A stretch of 64,000 nt of DNA from Paenibacillus sp. CC-CFT747 (GTDB taxonomy: Bacteria; Bacillota; Bacilli; Paenibacillales; NBRC-103111), in contig CP106741.1 of the NCBI GenBank assembly GCA_030323305.1, positions 1,999,501-2,063,500 on the forward strand. Direction: 5' to 3'. Shown here piece after piece: positions 4,180 through 56,198 of this stretch. The first letter of the stretch is position 1, and the number at the start of each line of letters is the position of its first letter. The position numbers and the translations under genes are program-made. Under the pieces are notes generated by a model, which saw only the letters and a program-made list of their open reading frames with translations, was not told where the DNA came from and ran no database searches.

Positions 4180-5020
4180 ATGAATCCTTCTTTAATTAAT
4201 TCGATGGTGACGATGCACGGGCTTCAGCAGAAGCTTGATGTGCTGGCGAACAACATGGCGAACTTGAACACGGCCGGGTACAAACGCAAGGAAGCCACCT
4301 TTGAGGATATATTGAACAATGTGAAGCAGCAGCCCCAAGCCTTTCAGAAGGAAGGCCGGCTGTCTCCGCTCGGCTATACCCAAGGCTGGGGGCCAAGCTC
4401 AGCCAGGTGCAGACCGATCTGTCCCAAGGTACGCTGAACCCGACCGGTCTCGACACGGATCTGGCCCTTGAAGGGGAGCTTTGTTCGAGCTGCAGACTCC
4501 GGACGGCGAAACGGCCTATACCCGGAACGGAGCGTTCGAGCTCACCGTCAACCCTAACGATCCCACCAATGTATATTTGGCTACGAAGGACGGAAACTAT
4601 ATCAAAGGTGTCGACAACCTGCCCATCAAGGTTCCCGCGGGAATGAAGATGGTGGTGGATGAGGGCGGTGTGGTAACAGCCTTCCGGGAAAGCGATCCCG
4701 CGAGCGGATCGGTTCCCGTCGGTCAGCTGAAGCTGGTCCGTGTCATCCGCCCCGCCTATTTGCAGGAGGTTGGCGACAACCTGTACACCGTGCCCGCCGG
4801 TTTGAACAATCCCCCCGGGTCCATCGTCCGTGACGTCAACCCTGCTTCTCCGCTGGAGGAGAAGGTGGCTGTGCGCCAAGGCTATCTGGAGCAGTCCAAT
4901 GTCAGCCTAAGCGACGAAATGACGGAGCTCCTGACAGTACAGAGGGCGTTTCAATTGACCTCGAGGGCGGTCAGTTCGTCGGATATGATGATGAACATGG
5001 CCAACAACCTGCGCGGGTGA
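4180..5020 (+). CDS. flhP: Flagellar rod/hook-basal body protein FlhP (FlgG family), two frame breaks
   Basis: This is a paralogue of the preceding gene: N-terminal MHGLQQKLDVLANNMANLN and C-terminal RQGYLEQSNVSLSDEM are FlgG-type rod motifs. ATG 4180 follows AGGAGG (4168-4173); the in-frame TTG at 4174 is inside the ribosome site spacing and is rejected. The frame breaks twice. Near 4388-4392 one G is missing from a G run, so that GWG-AKLSQVQTDLSQG is split; near 4477-4479 one base is missing before ALFELQTPDGET. Restoring one base at each site gives a continuous protein of about 280 residues, so the breaks look like sequence errors and not decay. Confidence 0.88.
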
Positions 5021-13558: not shown

Positions 13559-13660
13559 GCGTGTTCCTATAACTATTCGACACCGGGAAGCCGATATACC
13601 CACTACATCACTCTATCGTTACACAGAGAAGAACCCCAGAAACGCAAGGAGGAACTAAAG

Positions 13661-43620: not shown

Positions 43621-46123
43621 ATGCTGGGAATCGTCAAAAAGATATTCGGTGACTCGAACGAGCGCGATATCAAACGAATGATGAAAACGGTAGAGCGGAT
43701 CAACGCGATGGAGGCTGATTTCGAGCCTCTGACGGACGAGCAGTTGAGAGCCAAAACCGATGAATACAAAGAACGCCTGGAGAAGGGCGAAACGCTGGAG
43801 GACCTGCTGCCGGAGGCTTTTGCCACGGTAAGGAAGCGGCCAAGCGGACGCTCGGCATGCGCCACTTCGATGTGCAGCTGATCGGGGGTATGGTGCTTCA
43901 CGAAGGAAAAATCGCGGAGATGAAAACCGGGGAAGGAAAAACGCTCGTCGGAACGCTTCCCGTGTACCTGAATGCCCTCTCGGGCAAGGGCGTCCACCTG
44001 GTTACCGTCAACGACTACCTGGCCACCGTCGGCTGGGAGATGATGGGGAAGGTATACAACTTCCTCGGGCTTACGGTCGGGCTGAACTTGAACAGCATGG
44101 ACCACGCCCAGAAGCAGCAGGCTTATGCCTGCGACATCACGTACGGAACGAACAACGAGTTCGGGTTCGATTACCTGCGCGACAACATGGTGCTGTACAA
44201 GGAACAAATGGTGCAGCGTCCGCTTCACTATGCCATTGTCGATGAAGTGGACTCCATTCTGGTGGACGAGGCGCGGACTCCGCTCATCATTTCGGGACAA
44301 GCCGCCAAGTCGACGGAGCTTTATACGACGGCGGACCGTTTTGTGAACAAGCTGAAGGACGAAGAGGACTACACAATTGACATCAAGCTCCGCTCGGTTA
44401 ACCTGACGGAAGCCGGGGTGGCCAAGGCGGAGAAGGCGTTCGGGATCGAGAACCTGTTCGACCACGCCAATGTGCTCCTGAACCACCACATCACCCAGGC
44501 GCTGAAAGCCCACGCGATCATGCGCCGGGACATCGATTATGTCGTCCAGGAGGACGAAGTAGTCATCGTGGACGAGTTCACCGGACGCCTGATGACGGGC
44601 CGCCGGTACAGCGACGGGCTGCATCAGGCGATCGAGGCGAAGGAAGGCCTCACGGTCCAGAACGAGAGCATGACCCTGGCGACGATCACCTTCCAGAACT
44701 ACTTCCGGATGTACCGCAAGCTGGCCGGGATGACCGGTACGGCGAAGACCGAAGAAGAGGAGTTCAAGAAGATTTACGGGCTCGACGTCGTCGTGGTGCC
44801 GACGAACCGGCCGAACATCCGCAAGGACATGCCCGATGTCGTCTACAAATCGGAAGGCAGCAAGTTCCGCGCCACCGTCGAGGAGATCGTGAAGCGGCAC
44901 CAGGTGAACCAGCCGGTGCTGGTCGGTACGGTGTCGATCGAGAACTCGGAGAAGCTGTCGGATATGCTGAAGAAGAAAGGCGTCAAGCACCAGGTGCTGA
45001 ACGCAAAGTACCACGCCGAGGAAGCGGAGATCGTCTCCCGCGCCGGACAGCCGGGAGCCGTTACCATCGCCACGAACATGGCGGGTCGCGGAACGGATAT
45101 TTTGCTGGGCGAAGGGGTTCCCGAGCTCGGAGGCCTGCATATTATAGGTACGGAACGGCATGAGAGCCGCCGGATCGACAACCAGCTGCGCGGACGCGCC
45201 GGACGTCAGGGGGACCCGGGGTCTTCGCAGTTCTACCTCTCGCTCGAGGATGATCTCATGAAGCGCTTCGGCGCCGAGAACATCATGGGCATGATGGACC
45301 GTCTCGGCTTCGAGGAAGACCAGCCGATCGAGAGCCGCCTTATTACTCGTGCGGTGGAATCCGCCCAGAAGCGGGTGGAAGGCAACAACTTCGACGTGCG
45401 GAAGGTCGTTCTCCAGTACGACGACGTCATGAACCAGCAGCGGAACATTATCTACAAGCAGCGGATGGAAGTGCTCGAATCGGGCGACATCCGCGAGATC
45501 GTGCTCAACATGATCAACCCGGTGGTCGAGCGTGCGGTAGAAGCCCACTGCTCCGACGACCAGATCCCGGAAGAGTGGGAGCTCGATGAGCTGGCCTCCT
45601 ACGTGAACAACACGTTCCTGGAGGAAGGATCGCTGACGAAGGACCTTCTCTGGGGCAAAGAGAAGGAAGAGATCACGGAATACATCCAGGCCCAGATTCT
45701 CGAGAAGTATGAAGCCCGCGAAGAGCAGATCGGACCGGAGAACATGCGCGAGTTCGAGAAGGTGGTCGTACTCCGCGCCGTAGACAGCAAGTGGATGGAC
45801 CACATCGATGCGATGGATCAGCTCCGCCAGGGATTCACCTTCGGGCCTACGGCGGTACCGATCCGCTGAGGGAATACCAGTTCGAAGGCTTCGAGATGTT
45901 CCAGGAGATGATCAACAGCATCCAGGAGGAAGTCGCCACTTACATCATGAAGGCGCAGGTGGAAGTGAACCTGGAGCGTCAGGCGGTAGCGGAAGGACAG
46001 GCCGTCGACCCAAGTGGCGAGTCGTCGGAGAAGCGTCCGGTGAAGCGCGAGGATACGGTGGGCCGCAACGACCTGTGCCCATGCGGAAGCGGCAAGAAGT
46101 TCAAGCAGTGCCACGGCAAGTAA
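43621..46123 (+). CDS. secA: Preprotein translocase ATPase SecA, two frame breaks
   Basis: SecA drives Sec-dependent export. Motifs in order: [14 protein letters not shown] (Walker A), [95 protein letters not shown], and the C-terminal zinc tail [15 protein letters not shown]. The frame breaks at 43832-43833 (GG should be GGG; restores [19 protein letters not shown]) and at 45830-45832 (GGG should be GGGG; restores [20 protein letters not shown]). Since secA is essential, both breaks must be sequence errors. Restored length is about 834 residues, normal for Bacillales. GGAAAGGGG precedes ATG 43621. Confidence 0.97.
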
Positions 46124-46284: not shown

Positions 46285-47403
46285 ATGGAACCGGAAGTTA
46301 AGCAGGACCTAAGAGAAGTAGCAGGGCGATTAAATGAACTTAGGGGTCTCTTTGACTTAGACCTCAAGCTGGAACAAATTGCGGATTACGAAGAGAAAAT
46401 GTCGGTTCCCGACTTCTGGGACGATAACGATTACGCCCAGAAGATCATCGGCGAGCTGAATGCGATCAAGAGCGTCGTCTCCGACTACGAGGAGCTGTCC
46501 AAGAACTACGAGGAGCTCGAGGTGATGCTGGAGCTGGCGGAAGAGGAAGAAGACGACAGCCTGGTCGAGGAGCTGGTCAACGGAACGGCCGAGCTCGTTA
46601 AGAAGCTCGAGGCTTACGAGCTGACGCTGCTGTTGAGCCAGCCGTACGACCGGCTGAACGCCATTCTTGAGCTTCATCCGGGAGCCGGCGGAACGGAGTC
46701 GCAGGACTGGGCGGAGATGCTGCTTCGGATGTACCGCCGCTGGGCGGAGAAGCGGGGCTTCAAGGTCGAGGTGCTCGATTACCTGCCCGGCGACGAGGCT
46801 GGCGTGAAGAGCGTAACGCTGCTCATCAAAGGTCATAACGCCTACGGCTACCTGAAGACGGAGAAGGGCGTGCACCGGCTGGTGCGCATCTCGCCTTTTG
46901 ACGCATCGGGCCGCCGCCATACGTCCTTCGTCTCCTGCGACGTCGTTCCGGAGATCGAGGAGGACGTGGACATCGAGATCCGTCCGGAGGACCTCAAGGT
47001 CGACACGTACCGGTCCTCGGGAGCGGGCGGCCAGCACATCAATACGACGGACTCGGCGGTGCGGATCACGCACCTTCCGACCGGAATTGTGGTGACGTGC
47101 CAGACCGAGCGCTCGCAGATCAAGAACCGCGAGCGGGCGATGACCCACCTGCGCTCGAAGCTGTACGAGAAGAAGATCGAGGAGCAGGAGAAGCACCTGG
47201 CCGAGATCCGAGGCGAGCAGTCCGACATTGCGTGGGGCAGCCAGATCCGCTCGTACGTGTTCCACCCGTACAGCATGGTGAAAGATCACCGGACGCTGGC
47301 GGAGACGGGGAACGTCGGCGCGGTCATGGACGGGGAGATCGACTTCCTGATCGATGCGTACCTGCGCCATCAGATCCACCGCGAGCCGGGGGAAGAGCAG
47401 TAA
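46285..47403 (+). CDS. prfB: Peptide chain release factor 2 (RF2), frameshift site apparently altered
   Basis: RF2 releases peptides at UGA and UAA. Signature pieces are intact: [20 protein letters not shown], the specificity region [18 protein letters not shown], and the catalytic GGQ in [20 protein letters not shown]. The gene reads as one frame (372 residues from ATG 46285). However, the early part contains AGGGG-TCT-CTT-TGA-C (46342-46356), the classical RF2 frameshift site minus one G. With five G the zero frame would run RGSL then TGA, and the +1 frame DLDLK, as in B. subtilis (RGSL/DL). The single frame is therefore probably produced by the same one-base loss seen in neighbouring genes. 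GTG 46273 is in frame but abuts GGAG. Confidence 0.95.
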
Positions 47404-47684: not shown

Positions 47685-47716
47685 GGCATTTCCCGTTCCA
47701 GGGGAATGCCTTTTTT
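47685..47716 (+). terminator. Rho-independent terminator, probably of the secA-prfB unit
   Basis: GGCATT-T-CCC pairs with GGG-AATGCC (one bulged T), loop GTTCCAG, followed by six T. The stretch 47717-47910 shows nothing more that I can name. Confidence 0.82.
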
Positions 47717-47915
47717 GTGCGCCACTTGGAAACAGTAGCAGCGGGACGCAGTCCAGGGGCAGGGCATCTGGCAATGGCCTGATCCTGCTTGACGGCTGAT
47801 GCGATTTCCCTGTTTTCGCTTCTTCCCGCTTGCGGAAAACGGCCCTCTTTTTTAGAGACCGAAGGGGGAATTTCGGCGCGAATGGCGAAGTAGAAAAGGC
47901 AGGCCCAAAATATAA

Positions 47916-49074: not shown

Positions 49075-50297
49075 ATGGGAGCTGGATTTCAAGTGGTGGA
49101 AGCCGGCGGCGTCACGACGCCAAAAGGCTTCACGGCAGGAGGCCTTCACTGCGGCCTTAAGAAAACAGAGCGCTACGACCTCGGCGCCATCTGGTGCGAG
49201 GTGCCGGCCGCGGCGGCCGGCGTGTATACGCTGAATGCGTTCCAGGCGGCGCCCCTTAAGGTGACGCGGGAGAGCATCGGGCAGGAAGGCAAGCTGCAGG
49301 CGATGCTCGTGAACAGCGGCAACGCCAACGCGTGCACGGGCCAGCAGGGCGAGGACGATGCGCGGGAGATGCGCCAAGCGATGGCGCGGGCGCTCGGGAT
49401 TGAGGAGCACCTGGTCGGGGTGACCTCGACCGGCGTCATTGGCGAGCTGCTGCCGATGGAGAAGGTGCGAAGCGGCATCGCCGCCCTTCCGGACCGGCTG
49501 AAAGAGGACGGAAGCGAGGACTTCTGCCAGGCGATCCTGACGACCGACCTCGTACAGAAGATGATCTGCGTCAGCGTGGAGGTAGGCGGGCAGCCCGTTT
49601 ACATAGCGGGGGCGGCCAAAGGCTCCGGGATGATCCATCCGAACATGGCGACCATGCTCGGGTTCATCACCACGGACGCCAACGTAGCGGGCAGCGATCT
49701 GCAGGCGCTCTTGAACGGCGTGACCGATTCCACCTTCAACATGATCACCGTGGACGGCGACACGAGCACGAACGACATGGTCGTCGCCATGGCAAGCGGG
49801 CTCGCAGCGGGCGGGGAAGCCCTTGCCCCGGGCCACCCGGACTGGGCGGCGTTTGAGGAAGGCTTCCGGCACGTGGGCGAGTACCTCGCGAAGGCGATCG
49901 CCCGCGACGGCGAAGGAGCGACGAAGCTGGTCGAGGTGAACGTGGACGGTGCGCAGTCCGATAAGGCTGCCCGGGCCATCGCTAAAACGGTGGTCGGCTC
50001 CTCCCTGGTGAAGTCCGCCTGCTTCGGTGCCGACGCCAACTGGGGACGGATCATTGCCGCCGTCGGCCGGGCGGGTGAGCCCGTGAATGTGGACACCGTG
50101 GATATCCGGCTCGGCGATATTTCCGTTCTGGAGCAGTCGCGGCCGGTGAAGTTCGATGAGGACGCGGCGCTCGAGTACCTGCGCGGCGACCTAGTGCAGA
50201 TCTACGTCAGCTTGAACATGGGGAAGCGCGCGCCACTGCTTGGGGCTGCGACCTGACCTATGATTATGTCCGCATCAACGCGGCCTACCGGACGTAA
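49075..50297 (+). CDS. argJ: Bifunctional ornithine acetyltransferase / N-acetylglutamate synthase ArgJ, frame break near end
   Basis: ArgJ recycles the acetyl group from acetylornithine to glutamate. The autoproteolysis site and nucleophile lie in [20 protein letters not shown] (cleavage before the Thr of AT). As printed, the frame stops at 50256 with [10 protein letters not shown]. One more G in the run 50220-50223 gives [19 protein letters not shown] and RINAAYRT, the conserved ArgJ C terminus, with a stop at 50297. Restored length is about 407 residues, normal for ArgJ. The recovered ending is strong proof of a base loss. argB follows after 25 bp. Confidence 0.96.
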
Positions 50298-50322
50298 GCC
50301 TACACAAGAAAGGACCGGACTC

Positions 50323-51112
50323 ATGAGCGATAATTGTTTTGTCATCAAATGCGGCGGGAGCACCCTGGCGGCTCTGCCGGATTCTTTTATACGGATATGC
50401 GAAGCTTGCAGGAAGAGGGCCTGATTCCGGTGATCGTGCACGGGGGCGGTCCGGCGATTTCAGAGACGCTGAACAAGCTCGGAATCGAGACGGAATTCGT
50501 GGGCGGCCTGCGCAAAACGAACGAAGCCGTGCTGGATGTGGTGGAGATGGTTCTGGCGGGCCGGATCAACAAAGAGATCGTGCGCAAAATCCAGCTTTCC
50601 GGAGCGAAAGCGATCGGGCTGTCCGGCGTAGACGGCCACCTCATCAAGCCCGGCCGGTGGCGAATGCCGACGAGGTTGGGCTGGTGGGAGACGTGACGGA
50701 CGTGAATGCGGCGCTGATCCAAGGGATCGTGGCCATGGGCTACATGCCGGTCATCGCCCCTATCGGGCTTGGGGCCGACAGCGGACAGCGTTACAACATT
50801 AATGCGGATACGGCGGCGGGAGCGGTCGCTTCGCGGCTCGGCGTCGAGCGGATGATTGTCGTTACGGACGTGCCGGGCATCATGAGAACAGTAGATGGCG
50901 TCAAAAAAGTATTACCAAGTGTTGCGGTGTATGACATTGAAGAGATGATCGGTTCCGGTGAAATTTACGGAGGCATGATCCCGAAGGTCCGGGCGGCGGT
51001 TCAATGCATCCAAGGGGATGTAAAGGAAGTCGTTATCGTGGACGGCTCCGTTCCCGAAGTGCTGAGCCAGGTCCTCAAGGACGGGGAGATCGGTACCCGT
51101 ATCATCCGCTGA
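50323..51112 (+). CDS. argB: N-acetylglutamate kinase ArgB, two frame breaks
   Basis: ArgB phosphorylates N-acetylglutamate. ATG 50323 gives CFVIKCGGSTLAALPDSF, then the frame breaks at the T run 50385-50388 (one T short; restores SFYTDMRSLQEEG) and at 50654-50655 (CC should be CCC; restores KPGPVANADEVGLVGDVTD). Between and after these points the family motifs are clear: PVIVHGGGPAISETLNKLG, NKEIVRKIQLSGAKAIGLSG, NINADTAAGAVASRLG and IVVTDVPGIM, then IYGGMIPKVRAAVQCI. Restored length is about 263 residues, typical. It is part of the arginine operon. Confidence 0.95.
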
Positions 51113-51179
51113 TGTAAGGTAAGGTCAAGCCATGGCCCTACCTATCACCATAAATCATTCCAAAAAGGAGCGAAGAACC

Positions 51180-52366
51180 ATGGGAGAGCAGCAAAGCGCC
51201 TTGTTCCCGACCTATGCCCGGTACCCCATTACGATCGTGAAAGGGGAAGGCAGCCGGCTGTGGGATGACAACGGCAAGGAGTATTTGGACTTCATGAGCG
51301 GCTTGGCGGTAACGAGCCTGGGCCATGCCCCGAAGGCCATCAAGGAGAAGCTCATCGAGCAGCTGGACCAGCTGTGGCACGTGAGCAATCTGTTTCATAT
51401 TCCGAATCAGGAAAAGCTGGCGGCTCTCTTGACCGCGAACAGCTGCCTGGACCGGGCTTTCTTCTGCAGCACGGGCGCGGAGGCCAACGAGGCCGCCATT
51501 AAAATCGCCCGCCGCTACAACCAGAAGGTACTCGGCCGCGACCGCCATGAAATCATTACGTTCCATCAGTCGTTCCATGGGCGGACGCTCGCTACTCTAA
51601 CGGCAACCGGGCAGGATAAGGTGAAGGAAGGCTTCCTTCCGCTGCCTCAAGGGTTCGTGTATGCTCCTTATAACGTTATCGAAGGTTTGGAGTCGTATAT
51701 CAACGACCAGACCTGCGCCATCATGCTGGAGATGATCCAGGCCGAGGGCGGCGTTATTACGGCCGACCCGGCTTTTGTTCAGGAAGTGGTGCGCCTGTGC
51801 GAGAAGCACGATCTGCTTCTCATCGTCGATGAGATCCAGACAGGCATGGGCCGCACCGGCAAGCTGTTTGCCTATGAGCATTACGGCATCGAGCCGGATA
51901 TCATCACCTTGGCCAAAGCGCTCGGAAGCGGGTTCCCGATCGGCGCTATGCTGGGCAAGGAGAAGCTGGCGGAAGCTTTCTCGGCGGGAAGCCACGGCTC
52001 GACGTTCGGGGAACCCCGATTGCGACGGCAACGGCCATCGCCACCGTGGAGACAATCGTAGGCGAGAAGCTCTCCGAGCGTGCCGCGGAGAAAGGCGAGT
52101 ACCTTTTCGCAAAGCTGACGGAAGCGCTGGAAGGCAACGATTTCGTGAAGGAAATCCGCGGCAAGGGCCTGATCGTGGGCATTCTATGTGCGGGTCCGGT
52201 TGCCGAGCAGATTGCGGACATTCACCGGAACGGCCTGCTCGTCGTTTCCGCTGGGCCGAACGTGATCCGTCTTCTGCCGAATCTACTCGTGAGCGAGGAA
52301 GAAATTGACCGGGCGGTCGAAACGATCAGCCGGGTGCTGGCCGCCAAAGCTCAGACAGCCGTCTAG
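51180..52366 (+). CDS. argD: Acetylornithine aminotransferase ArgD, one frame break
   Basis: ArgD is a PLP enzyme converting N-acetylglutamate semialdehyde to acetylornithine. Motifs: YLDFMSGLAVTSLGHAPKAI, FFCSTGAEANEAAIKIARRY, HGRTLATLTATGQ, LLIVDEIQTGMGRTGKLFAY, and the PLP lysine in IITLAKALGSGFPIGAML. The G run 52008-52011 is one short; restoring it turns TFGEPRLRRQ into TFGGTPIATATAIATVETI, and the protein continues to 52366 (about 395 residues). ATG 51180 follows AAAAAGGAG. Confidence 0.96.
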
Positions 52367-54783: not shown

Positions 54784-56198
54784 GTGTCTAAACTTTGGGG
54801 TGGACGTTTTACGAAGCAAACCGATCAGCTGGTGGAGGAGTATACCGCCTCGATCCTGTTCGACAAAGAGCTCGCCGAAGAGGACATCCAGGAAGCCTGG
54901 CTCATGTCACCATGCTCGGCAAATGTGGTATTCTGCCGGCGGAGGACGTCGAGAAGATCAAGGACGGCCTCCTGAAGGTGCAGGGGATCATCCGCCGCGG
55001 GGAAATGGAATTCTCCGTCAGCAACGAAGATATCCATATGAACATCGAGAAAGCGCTGCTGGATGAGATCGGTCCGGTCGGAGGCAAGCTCCATACGGGA
55101 CGCAGCCGTAACGACCAGGTGGCGACGGACATGCACCTCTACCTGCGCAAGCGGGTCGTGGAGTTCGTCGGCTTCCTGCAGAAGCTTCAGGAGGCGCTGC
55201 TTACGCAGGCGGCGAACAACCTCGACACGATCGTGCCGGGCTACACGCACCTGCAGCGGGCGCAGCCGATTCTGTTCGCCCACCACCTGATGGCGTACGT
55301 CTCCATGTTCCAGCGCGACATCGAGCGCCTGCAGGACAGCTACAAGCGCATCAACGTGCTGCCGCTCGGCGCCGGGGCGTTGGCCGGTACCACCTTCCCG
55401 ATCGACCGCCATTTTGTGGCGGAGCAGCTCGGGTTCGACCGGCCGTACGAGAACAGCCTCGACGCGGTCAGCGACCGGGACTTCATCCTGGAGTTCCTCT
55501 CGAACGCCTCGATGATCATGATGCACCTGTCGCGCTTCTGCGAGGAGCTGGTGCTCTGGTCGAGCACGGAGTTCACCTTCGTCGAGCTCGACGACGCCTT
55601 CTGTACGGGCAGCAGCATCATGCCGCAGAAGAAGAACCCCGACGTGGCCGAGCTTGTCCGTGGCAAGACGGGCCGGGTGTACGGCAACCTGATGGGGCTC
55701 CTGACGGTGCTGAAGTCGCTTCCGCTGGCCTACAACAAGGACATGCAGGAAGATAAAGAAGGCATGTTCGACACCGTGAAGACGCTGCAGGGCGCCCTTC
55801 AGCTGTTCGCCCCGATGGTGGCGACCATGAAGGTGAACAAGGACCGGATGCGCCAGGCGGTCAACCAGGACTTCTCTAACGCCACCGATATCGCCGACTA
55901 CCTGGTGAACAAGGGACTGCCGTTCCGCCAGGCGCATGAGGTCATCGGCAAAACGGTGCTGTACTGCATCCAGAACAGCAAGTACCTGCTCGACCTGAGC
56001 CTCGAGGAGTTCCGGCAGTTCTCCGAGCTGTTCGGGGACGACATTTATGCCGTGCTGCAGCCGGAGCAGGTCGTGAACGCCCGTAATGTCTACGGGGGAA
56101 CGAACGCCGGCCAAGTCCAGGGAGCCATTGACCGGGCCCGCGGGGAGCTGGAGAAAACATCCGCTTGGGTCGAAGAATATATACAGAAGAGCAAGTAG
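54784..56198 (+). CDS. argH: Argininosuccinate lyase ArgH, one frame break
   Basis: ArgH splits argininosuccinate to arginine and fumarate. GTG 54784 starts [19 protein letters not shown]. Soon after, GG at 54899-54900 is one G short; restoring it gives [20 protein letters not shown]. The rest is normal: [33 protein letters not shown], and the fumarase/lyase signature [20 protein letters not shown] near residue 280 with catalytic Ser. Restored length is about 471 residues. GGAAGGAGCG precedes the GTG. A strong terminator follows, closing the arginine operon. Confidence 0.96.

Follow-up and report, generated by a model that had tools for sequence, protein, structure and literature searches.

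Does the uninterrupted prfB gene printed in this genome record a loss of RF2 autoregulation, or does it record a base that was dropped from the assembly? According to the available text of two papers, translation ends at an internal TGA when RF2 is high, and when RF2 is low the ribosome stalls while CTT occupies the P site, an internal Shine-Dalgarno (SD)-like stretch aids a +1 slip, and RF2 is made (PMC12421855, PMC13245932). With one G fewer in that stretch, i.e. with four Gs, leader and RF2 would share a single frame and there would be no RF2 autoregulation. The window, by which we mean the whole stretch of 64,000 nucleotides that was analyzed, prints exactly such a gene. We are highly confident that its uninterrupted frame is an assembly artefact in which one G was lost from a run of five.

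The frameshift site of prfB

The prfB gene lies on the plus strand at 46285..47403 and its open frame spans 46273/46285-47403 in the ORF reading of the window; ATG 46285 was taken as the start on the basis of an ATG in the equivalent area of family members printed in the same orientation. Its closest match is the prfB of G001, the other genome of the same species (99% protein identity). Best matches in the other family genomes share 75-99% protein identity with it, and are thereby set apart from prfA-like matches in the family at 37-41%. The site itself (46342..46356, plus strand) is a +1 programmed frameshift site minus one G: A (46342), the G run or internal SD-like stretch GGGG (46343-46346), TCT (46347-46349), the slippery codon CTT (46350-46352), TGA (46353-46355, forming with CTT the element at 46350..46355) and C (46356). 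As the first-pass annotation had read it, the printed frame AGG GGT CTC TTT GAC gives one open RF2 frame with TGA out of frame, and both the window sequence and the ORF bear this out.

Most features of a programmed frameshift site are nonetheless retained. The SD-like G-rich stretch is present three bases ahead of the slippery codon (AGGGG, TCT, CTT), and CTT is followed by T, with C after the stop (CTTTGAC); the start codon and the TGA share a frame in G001 but not in the printed window sequence. Judged by sequence, the likeness of the site to the family frameshift motif is beyond chance. Set beside the consensus given in the accessible parts of a survey of prfB +1 frameshifting, the window has the SD-like AGGGG(G), the three-base spacer, CTT, TGA and C, all but one G, and differs in that this missing G places TGA out of frame (PMC12421855). 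The same source reports that prfB sequences without a premature stop also lack the SD-like and slippery elements, and that B. subtilis suffers toxicity when RF2 is overexpressed without the motif (PMC12421855). Loss of those two elements, the mark of a truly uninterrupted prfB, was not seen in the window, where both are kept. A very recent loss of autoregulation would likewise leave them in place. Because the motif is otherwise undecayed, either an artefact or a very recent event would fit.

Conservation of the five-G run in relatives

In G001 the site reads AGGGGGTCTCTTTGAC, with five Gs, and the leader stops at an in-frame TGA that is codon 24, so that RF2 needs a +1 shift. Within a family sample of 104 genomes, 102 have a readable prfB site; one genome (G080) has no match and another (G006) has a single match with an E-value typical of prfA-like matches. 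The form GGGGG-TCN-CTTTGAC is found at 101 of the 102 sites (95 with TCT, 4 with TCA, 2 with TCC), as scored by motif, the frame of each TGA not being individually confirmed, and the only four-G site is that of the window. The window motif is the commonest family form (95/102) minus one G. Four Gs in sister species, along with four Gs in verified reads, had been named at the outset as what would favor a genuine four-G state; on the side of the relatives, five Gs in G001 and at 101 of 102 family sites went against it.

Wider scans gave a similar picture. The five-G motif occurs in 386 of 392 sampled genomes of the order, its location at prfB being confirmed for the family only, and the six genomes without it are G000 (the genome holding the window), G006, G080, G126, G128 and G390. 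A four-G motif occurs somewhere in 18 of the 392; when each of these 18 loci was tested, two proved to be at prfB, in G000 and G390. A third, G396, came from a scan of 75 genomes, 7 of them new, in the genus of G390; in six further members of that genus whose sites were inspected individually, the run has five Gs. The total is thus 3 of 399 genomes of the order. A class-wide scan of 398 genomes found the four-G pattern in 22, with the window's match alone located at prfB, and tblastn of 22 new class-wide loci returned no RF2 match. These four-G scans detect [ACT]GGGG-TCN-CTTTGAC only, and other four-G forms escape them. In another collection, among the best 80 of 581 named relatives, a loose test found a CTTTGA-, CTTTAA- or TTTTGA-like motif in 74 and none in 6; in three motif-free relatives among the matches listed, the prfB region is quite different in sequence.

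Two family members show changes elsewhere in prfB. In G003 (L206, G003:C18:71189-72221) the RF2 match falls into two pieces that overlap and differ in frame, marking a separate frame change within RF2, and in G035 there is an internal TAG and a shortened match. The frameshift sites of both have five Gs.

Under-calling of homopolymers in the assembly

G000 is a single contig of 6.22 Mb with a completeness of 90.65% and a contamination of 4.99%; the completeness of G001 is 99%, and this difference was counted towards an artefact. The two genomes were aligned through 15 collinear BLAST pieces of more than 900 columns, shorter and off-diagonal pieces being left out. Mismatches number 5,919 in 209,241 aligned bases, so the two are different strains, and a recent deletion private to the G000 strain stays compatible with the comparison.

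Homopolymers were compared run by run between G001 and G000, only where flanking bases agree. Of 197 five-base G/C runs in G001, 37 are printed with four bases in G000 (~19%; 95% interval 14-25%), against 2 of 182 in the reverse direction (Fisher p = 2e-9). Six-base G/C runs are shortened to five in 18 of 23 cases and, among A/T runs of seven, 14 of 30 are six long in G000. In runs of at least five, G000 has 106 one-base deletions versus 5 one-base insertions over the 209 kb aligned, and 19 versus 1 in the window alone. Seven five-to-four G/C runs fall in the window, at 4473, 8120, 46343 (the prfB run), 50220, 52008, 57387 and 57763. The chance that a true five is printed as four in this assembly is about 19%, and it is in such an assembly that the prfB frame is continuous. 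Since the remaining 160 of 197 five-base runs agree between the two genomes, an error at the prfB run, though likelier than a real loss, is not certain. A bulk count of five-base G/C runs, 62 in both the window and G001, was uninformative, because shortened six-base runs refill the five-base class; the run-by-run comparison alone is informative.

Homopolymer errors in long-read bacterial assemblies are well known, as the consulted portions of two papers attest (PMC8812927, PMC12007338). G000 resembles the assemblies described there in that one-base deletions are concentrated in homopolymers and genes are fragmented; it differs in that the presumed error at prfB takes away an interruption rather than creating one.

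Broken genes near prfB

The first-pass annotation had also held that the same loss of one G recurs in neighboring genes, which proved partly right. One-base losses relative to G001 do occur nearby, and the lost base is G in secA (43832, 45830), near the end of argJ (50220) and in argD (52008); argB has instead lost a T and a C (50385, 50645), and argH an A (54890). The names secA, argB, argD, argH, argJ and hpf are those we take these genes to bear from their sequences. The secA gene (43621..46123, plus strand) is one frame of 834 aa in G001 and three frames here, with changes near 43832 and 45830. Likewise on the plus strand, an argB-like acetylglutamate kinase gene (50260..51112) is one frame in G001 and three here (near 50385 and 50645), an argD-like aminotransferase gene (51138..52366) is split by a five-to-four G change near 52008, and an argH-like gene (54784..56195) is split near 54890, the latter two being single frames in G001. 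In all, 24 plus-strand ORFs of G001 from around prfB were compared, and G000 has 7 of them divided among several frames, namely the hpf-like gene, secA, the argJ-like gene (at its end), the argB-, argD- and argH-like genes and a gene running from 62739 to beyond the window end; 3 of the 24 have no match above 80% identity. SecA is essential, which makes real breaks in its gene implausible.

A classification of indels by longest ORF was dropped as main evidence, as long antisense ORFs confuse it at 55% GC; it labels the prfB site as broken in G001, as is expected of an interrupted gene. Counts of frame changes in ORFs of at least 250 aa, which partly share this antisense-ORF problem, are 39 of 114 G001 ORFs changed in G000 versus 9 of 103 G000 ORFs changed in G001, the latter including at least one antisense ORF over secA. 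This comparison covered 224 kb of G000 and 240 kb of G001, partly masked. In-frame stops were scored in 7 of 114 and 8 of 103 ORFs, so there is no excess of such stops in G000.

Other assemblies with four Gs at prfB

The four-G prfB of G390 (G390:C1:5890372-5890386, locus L216) belongs to a genome of another family of the order with a completeness of 99%, and the rest of its motif is intact. With G001 ORFs as queries over 80 kb, secA and the arg genes of G390 are whole, which at first gave its prfB the look of a genuine natural loss. That impression was undercut by ORFs of a related genome, G129, used as queries: the frame is changed in G390 in 3 of 37 matched genes over 80 kb and in 12 of 146 over 280 kb, against 0 of 35 and 0 of 145 the other way round. 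Two long G129 ORFs that are frame-broken in G390 have no NCBIfam match. In the comparison of five-base G/C runs with G129, 1 of 11 is shortened and the other ten keep five; the shortened one is prfB itself, as identified over 80 kb. As the sole shortened run of 11, the four-G prfB of G390 is unexplained by general under-calling of runs; it may be an error all the same, or G390 could be a second, perhaps better, case of a natural (G)5->4 prfB.

The third four-G prfB, in G396 (G396:C1:7122725-7122739, locus L229), comes from a single-contig assembly with a completeness of 89%. Against G129, 12 of 48 matched genes are frame-broken in it, and the opposite comparison gives 1 of 51. Shortening affects 7 of its 15 compared five-base G/C runs, and the prfB run is one of these. 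The assembly is clearly indel-prone, and its four-G prfB is very probably the same kind of artefact as that of the window. All three assemblies with a four-G prfB, among the 399 genomes of the order, thus contain frame-broken genes that a relative has whole.

A dropped G or a recent loss

We propose that prfB is ordinary in this organism and has the standard +1 frameshift site, AGGGGG TCT CTT TGA C, and that the G000 assembly, in under-calling homopolymers, would have lost one G of the five-G run. As the missing G sits upstream of the internal TGA, its loss would place leader and RF2 in a single frame and so imitate an evolutionary loss of autoregulation. The DNA of the window strain thus probably has five Gs at prfB, and by analogy the site would then work as in well-studied bacteria, with RF2-dependent termination at TGA set against a +1 slip on CTT. 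That an assembly error mimics a loss had been suggested from the sequence at first pass, and the run counts (37/197 versus 2/182) and the broken neighboring genes, secA included, now support it. From the error chance of 19%, a loss in at most 3 of 399 genomes and the short within-species branch, we infer odds for error over real loss of at least about 25 to 1, which would be higher if the sites of G390 and G396 are also errors. Checking G390 left the odds for error unchanged.

The main competing account is a real and very recent loss, in which a one-G deletion fuses the frames, RF2 becomes constitutive and RGLFDLDL replaces RGSLDLDL. A precedent is described in the available text of a study of P. 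fluorescens, where 2 of 34 evolved isolates had acquired the same (G)5->4 deletion, with autoregulation lost and fitness regained as a result, and where eliminating RF2 autoregulation had no detectable fitness effect (PMC13245932). The Iso-PRF-1 prfB allele of P. fluorescens SBW25 is the same change in the same element with the frames fused, and differs in that this real mutation was selected where the slippery codon was damaged, while the window motif is otherwise intact in an assembly that under-calls runs (PMC13245932). A real loss also agrees with the fully open printed frame, and with G390, which has four Gs at prfB while its ten other compared five-base runs keep five. Against it stand the shortening of 37 of 197 five-base runs in G000, the lack of any four-G site among the other 101 of the family and the frame-broken genes of both other four-G genomes of the order, G390 and G396; the laboratory deletion, moreover, compensated a damaged slippery codon, and CTTTGAC is intact here. 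We therefore regard a real loss as very improbable, and give just as little credence to the idea that this strain offers, in nature, a match to the laboratory-evolved (G)5->4 allele, so recent that the motif has had no time to decay.

Two further accounts seem to us scarcely credible. A true mutator strain, with many genuine homopolymer deletions including that in prfB, would produce the excess of one-base deletions within runs; the strong one-sidedness of that excess (106 to 5) and the frame breaks in secA, which a viable strain should not carry, speak against it. If instead G001 were wrong and four Gs were the true state of the species, for which we found no supporting point, frames would hardly be whole in G001 and broken in G000 far more often than the reverse, nor would 101 of 102 family sites have five Gs.

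Implications for surveys of prfB

On the preferred reading, that of a G dropped from the run, the four-G prfB of the window is a modest practical point and not new biology; in all likelihood a sequencing error conceals an ordinary gene. Homopolymer errors mostly come to notice through the genes they break, and the one proposed for prfB would delete an interruption that is expected. A four-G prfB would pass checks for broken genes and be counted as lost autoregulation in surveys of RF2. In the accessible portions of the literature, sequencing error has been raised for prfA pseudogenes (PMC12421855), and prfB genes have been wrongly annotated as pseudogenes (PMC3711429); among the papers listed in a literature search, mostly as titles and abstract openings, none concerned a homopolymer error giving a false loss of the prfB frameshift. 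Because all three four-G assemblies have frame-broken genes, apparent losses of the prfB frameshift by one base should be discounted until the run is verified, and a screen for one-base errors in runs belongs in any survey of lost RF2 autoregulation. The prfB G run might even act as a small built-in test of assembly quality.

Other features of the two strains

The comparison of G000 with G001 brought out three further features. At window positions 13607-13652, inside an ORF of ~1,320 aa, a 23-base difference from G001 is followed by a 2-base difference and the frame is restored. After prfB, at 47711-47848, many small indels separate the two strains in a stretch with no clear gene and an unreliable alignment. 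Outside the window, a 1.45-kb stretch is present at two places in each strain with 98-99.5% identity (in G000:C1 at about 2100602-2102062 and 2168440-2169892), and is possibly an insertion sequence.
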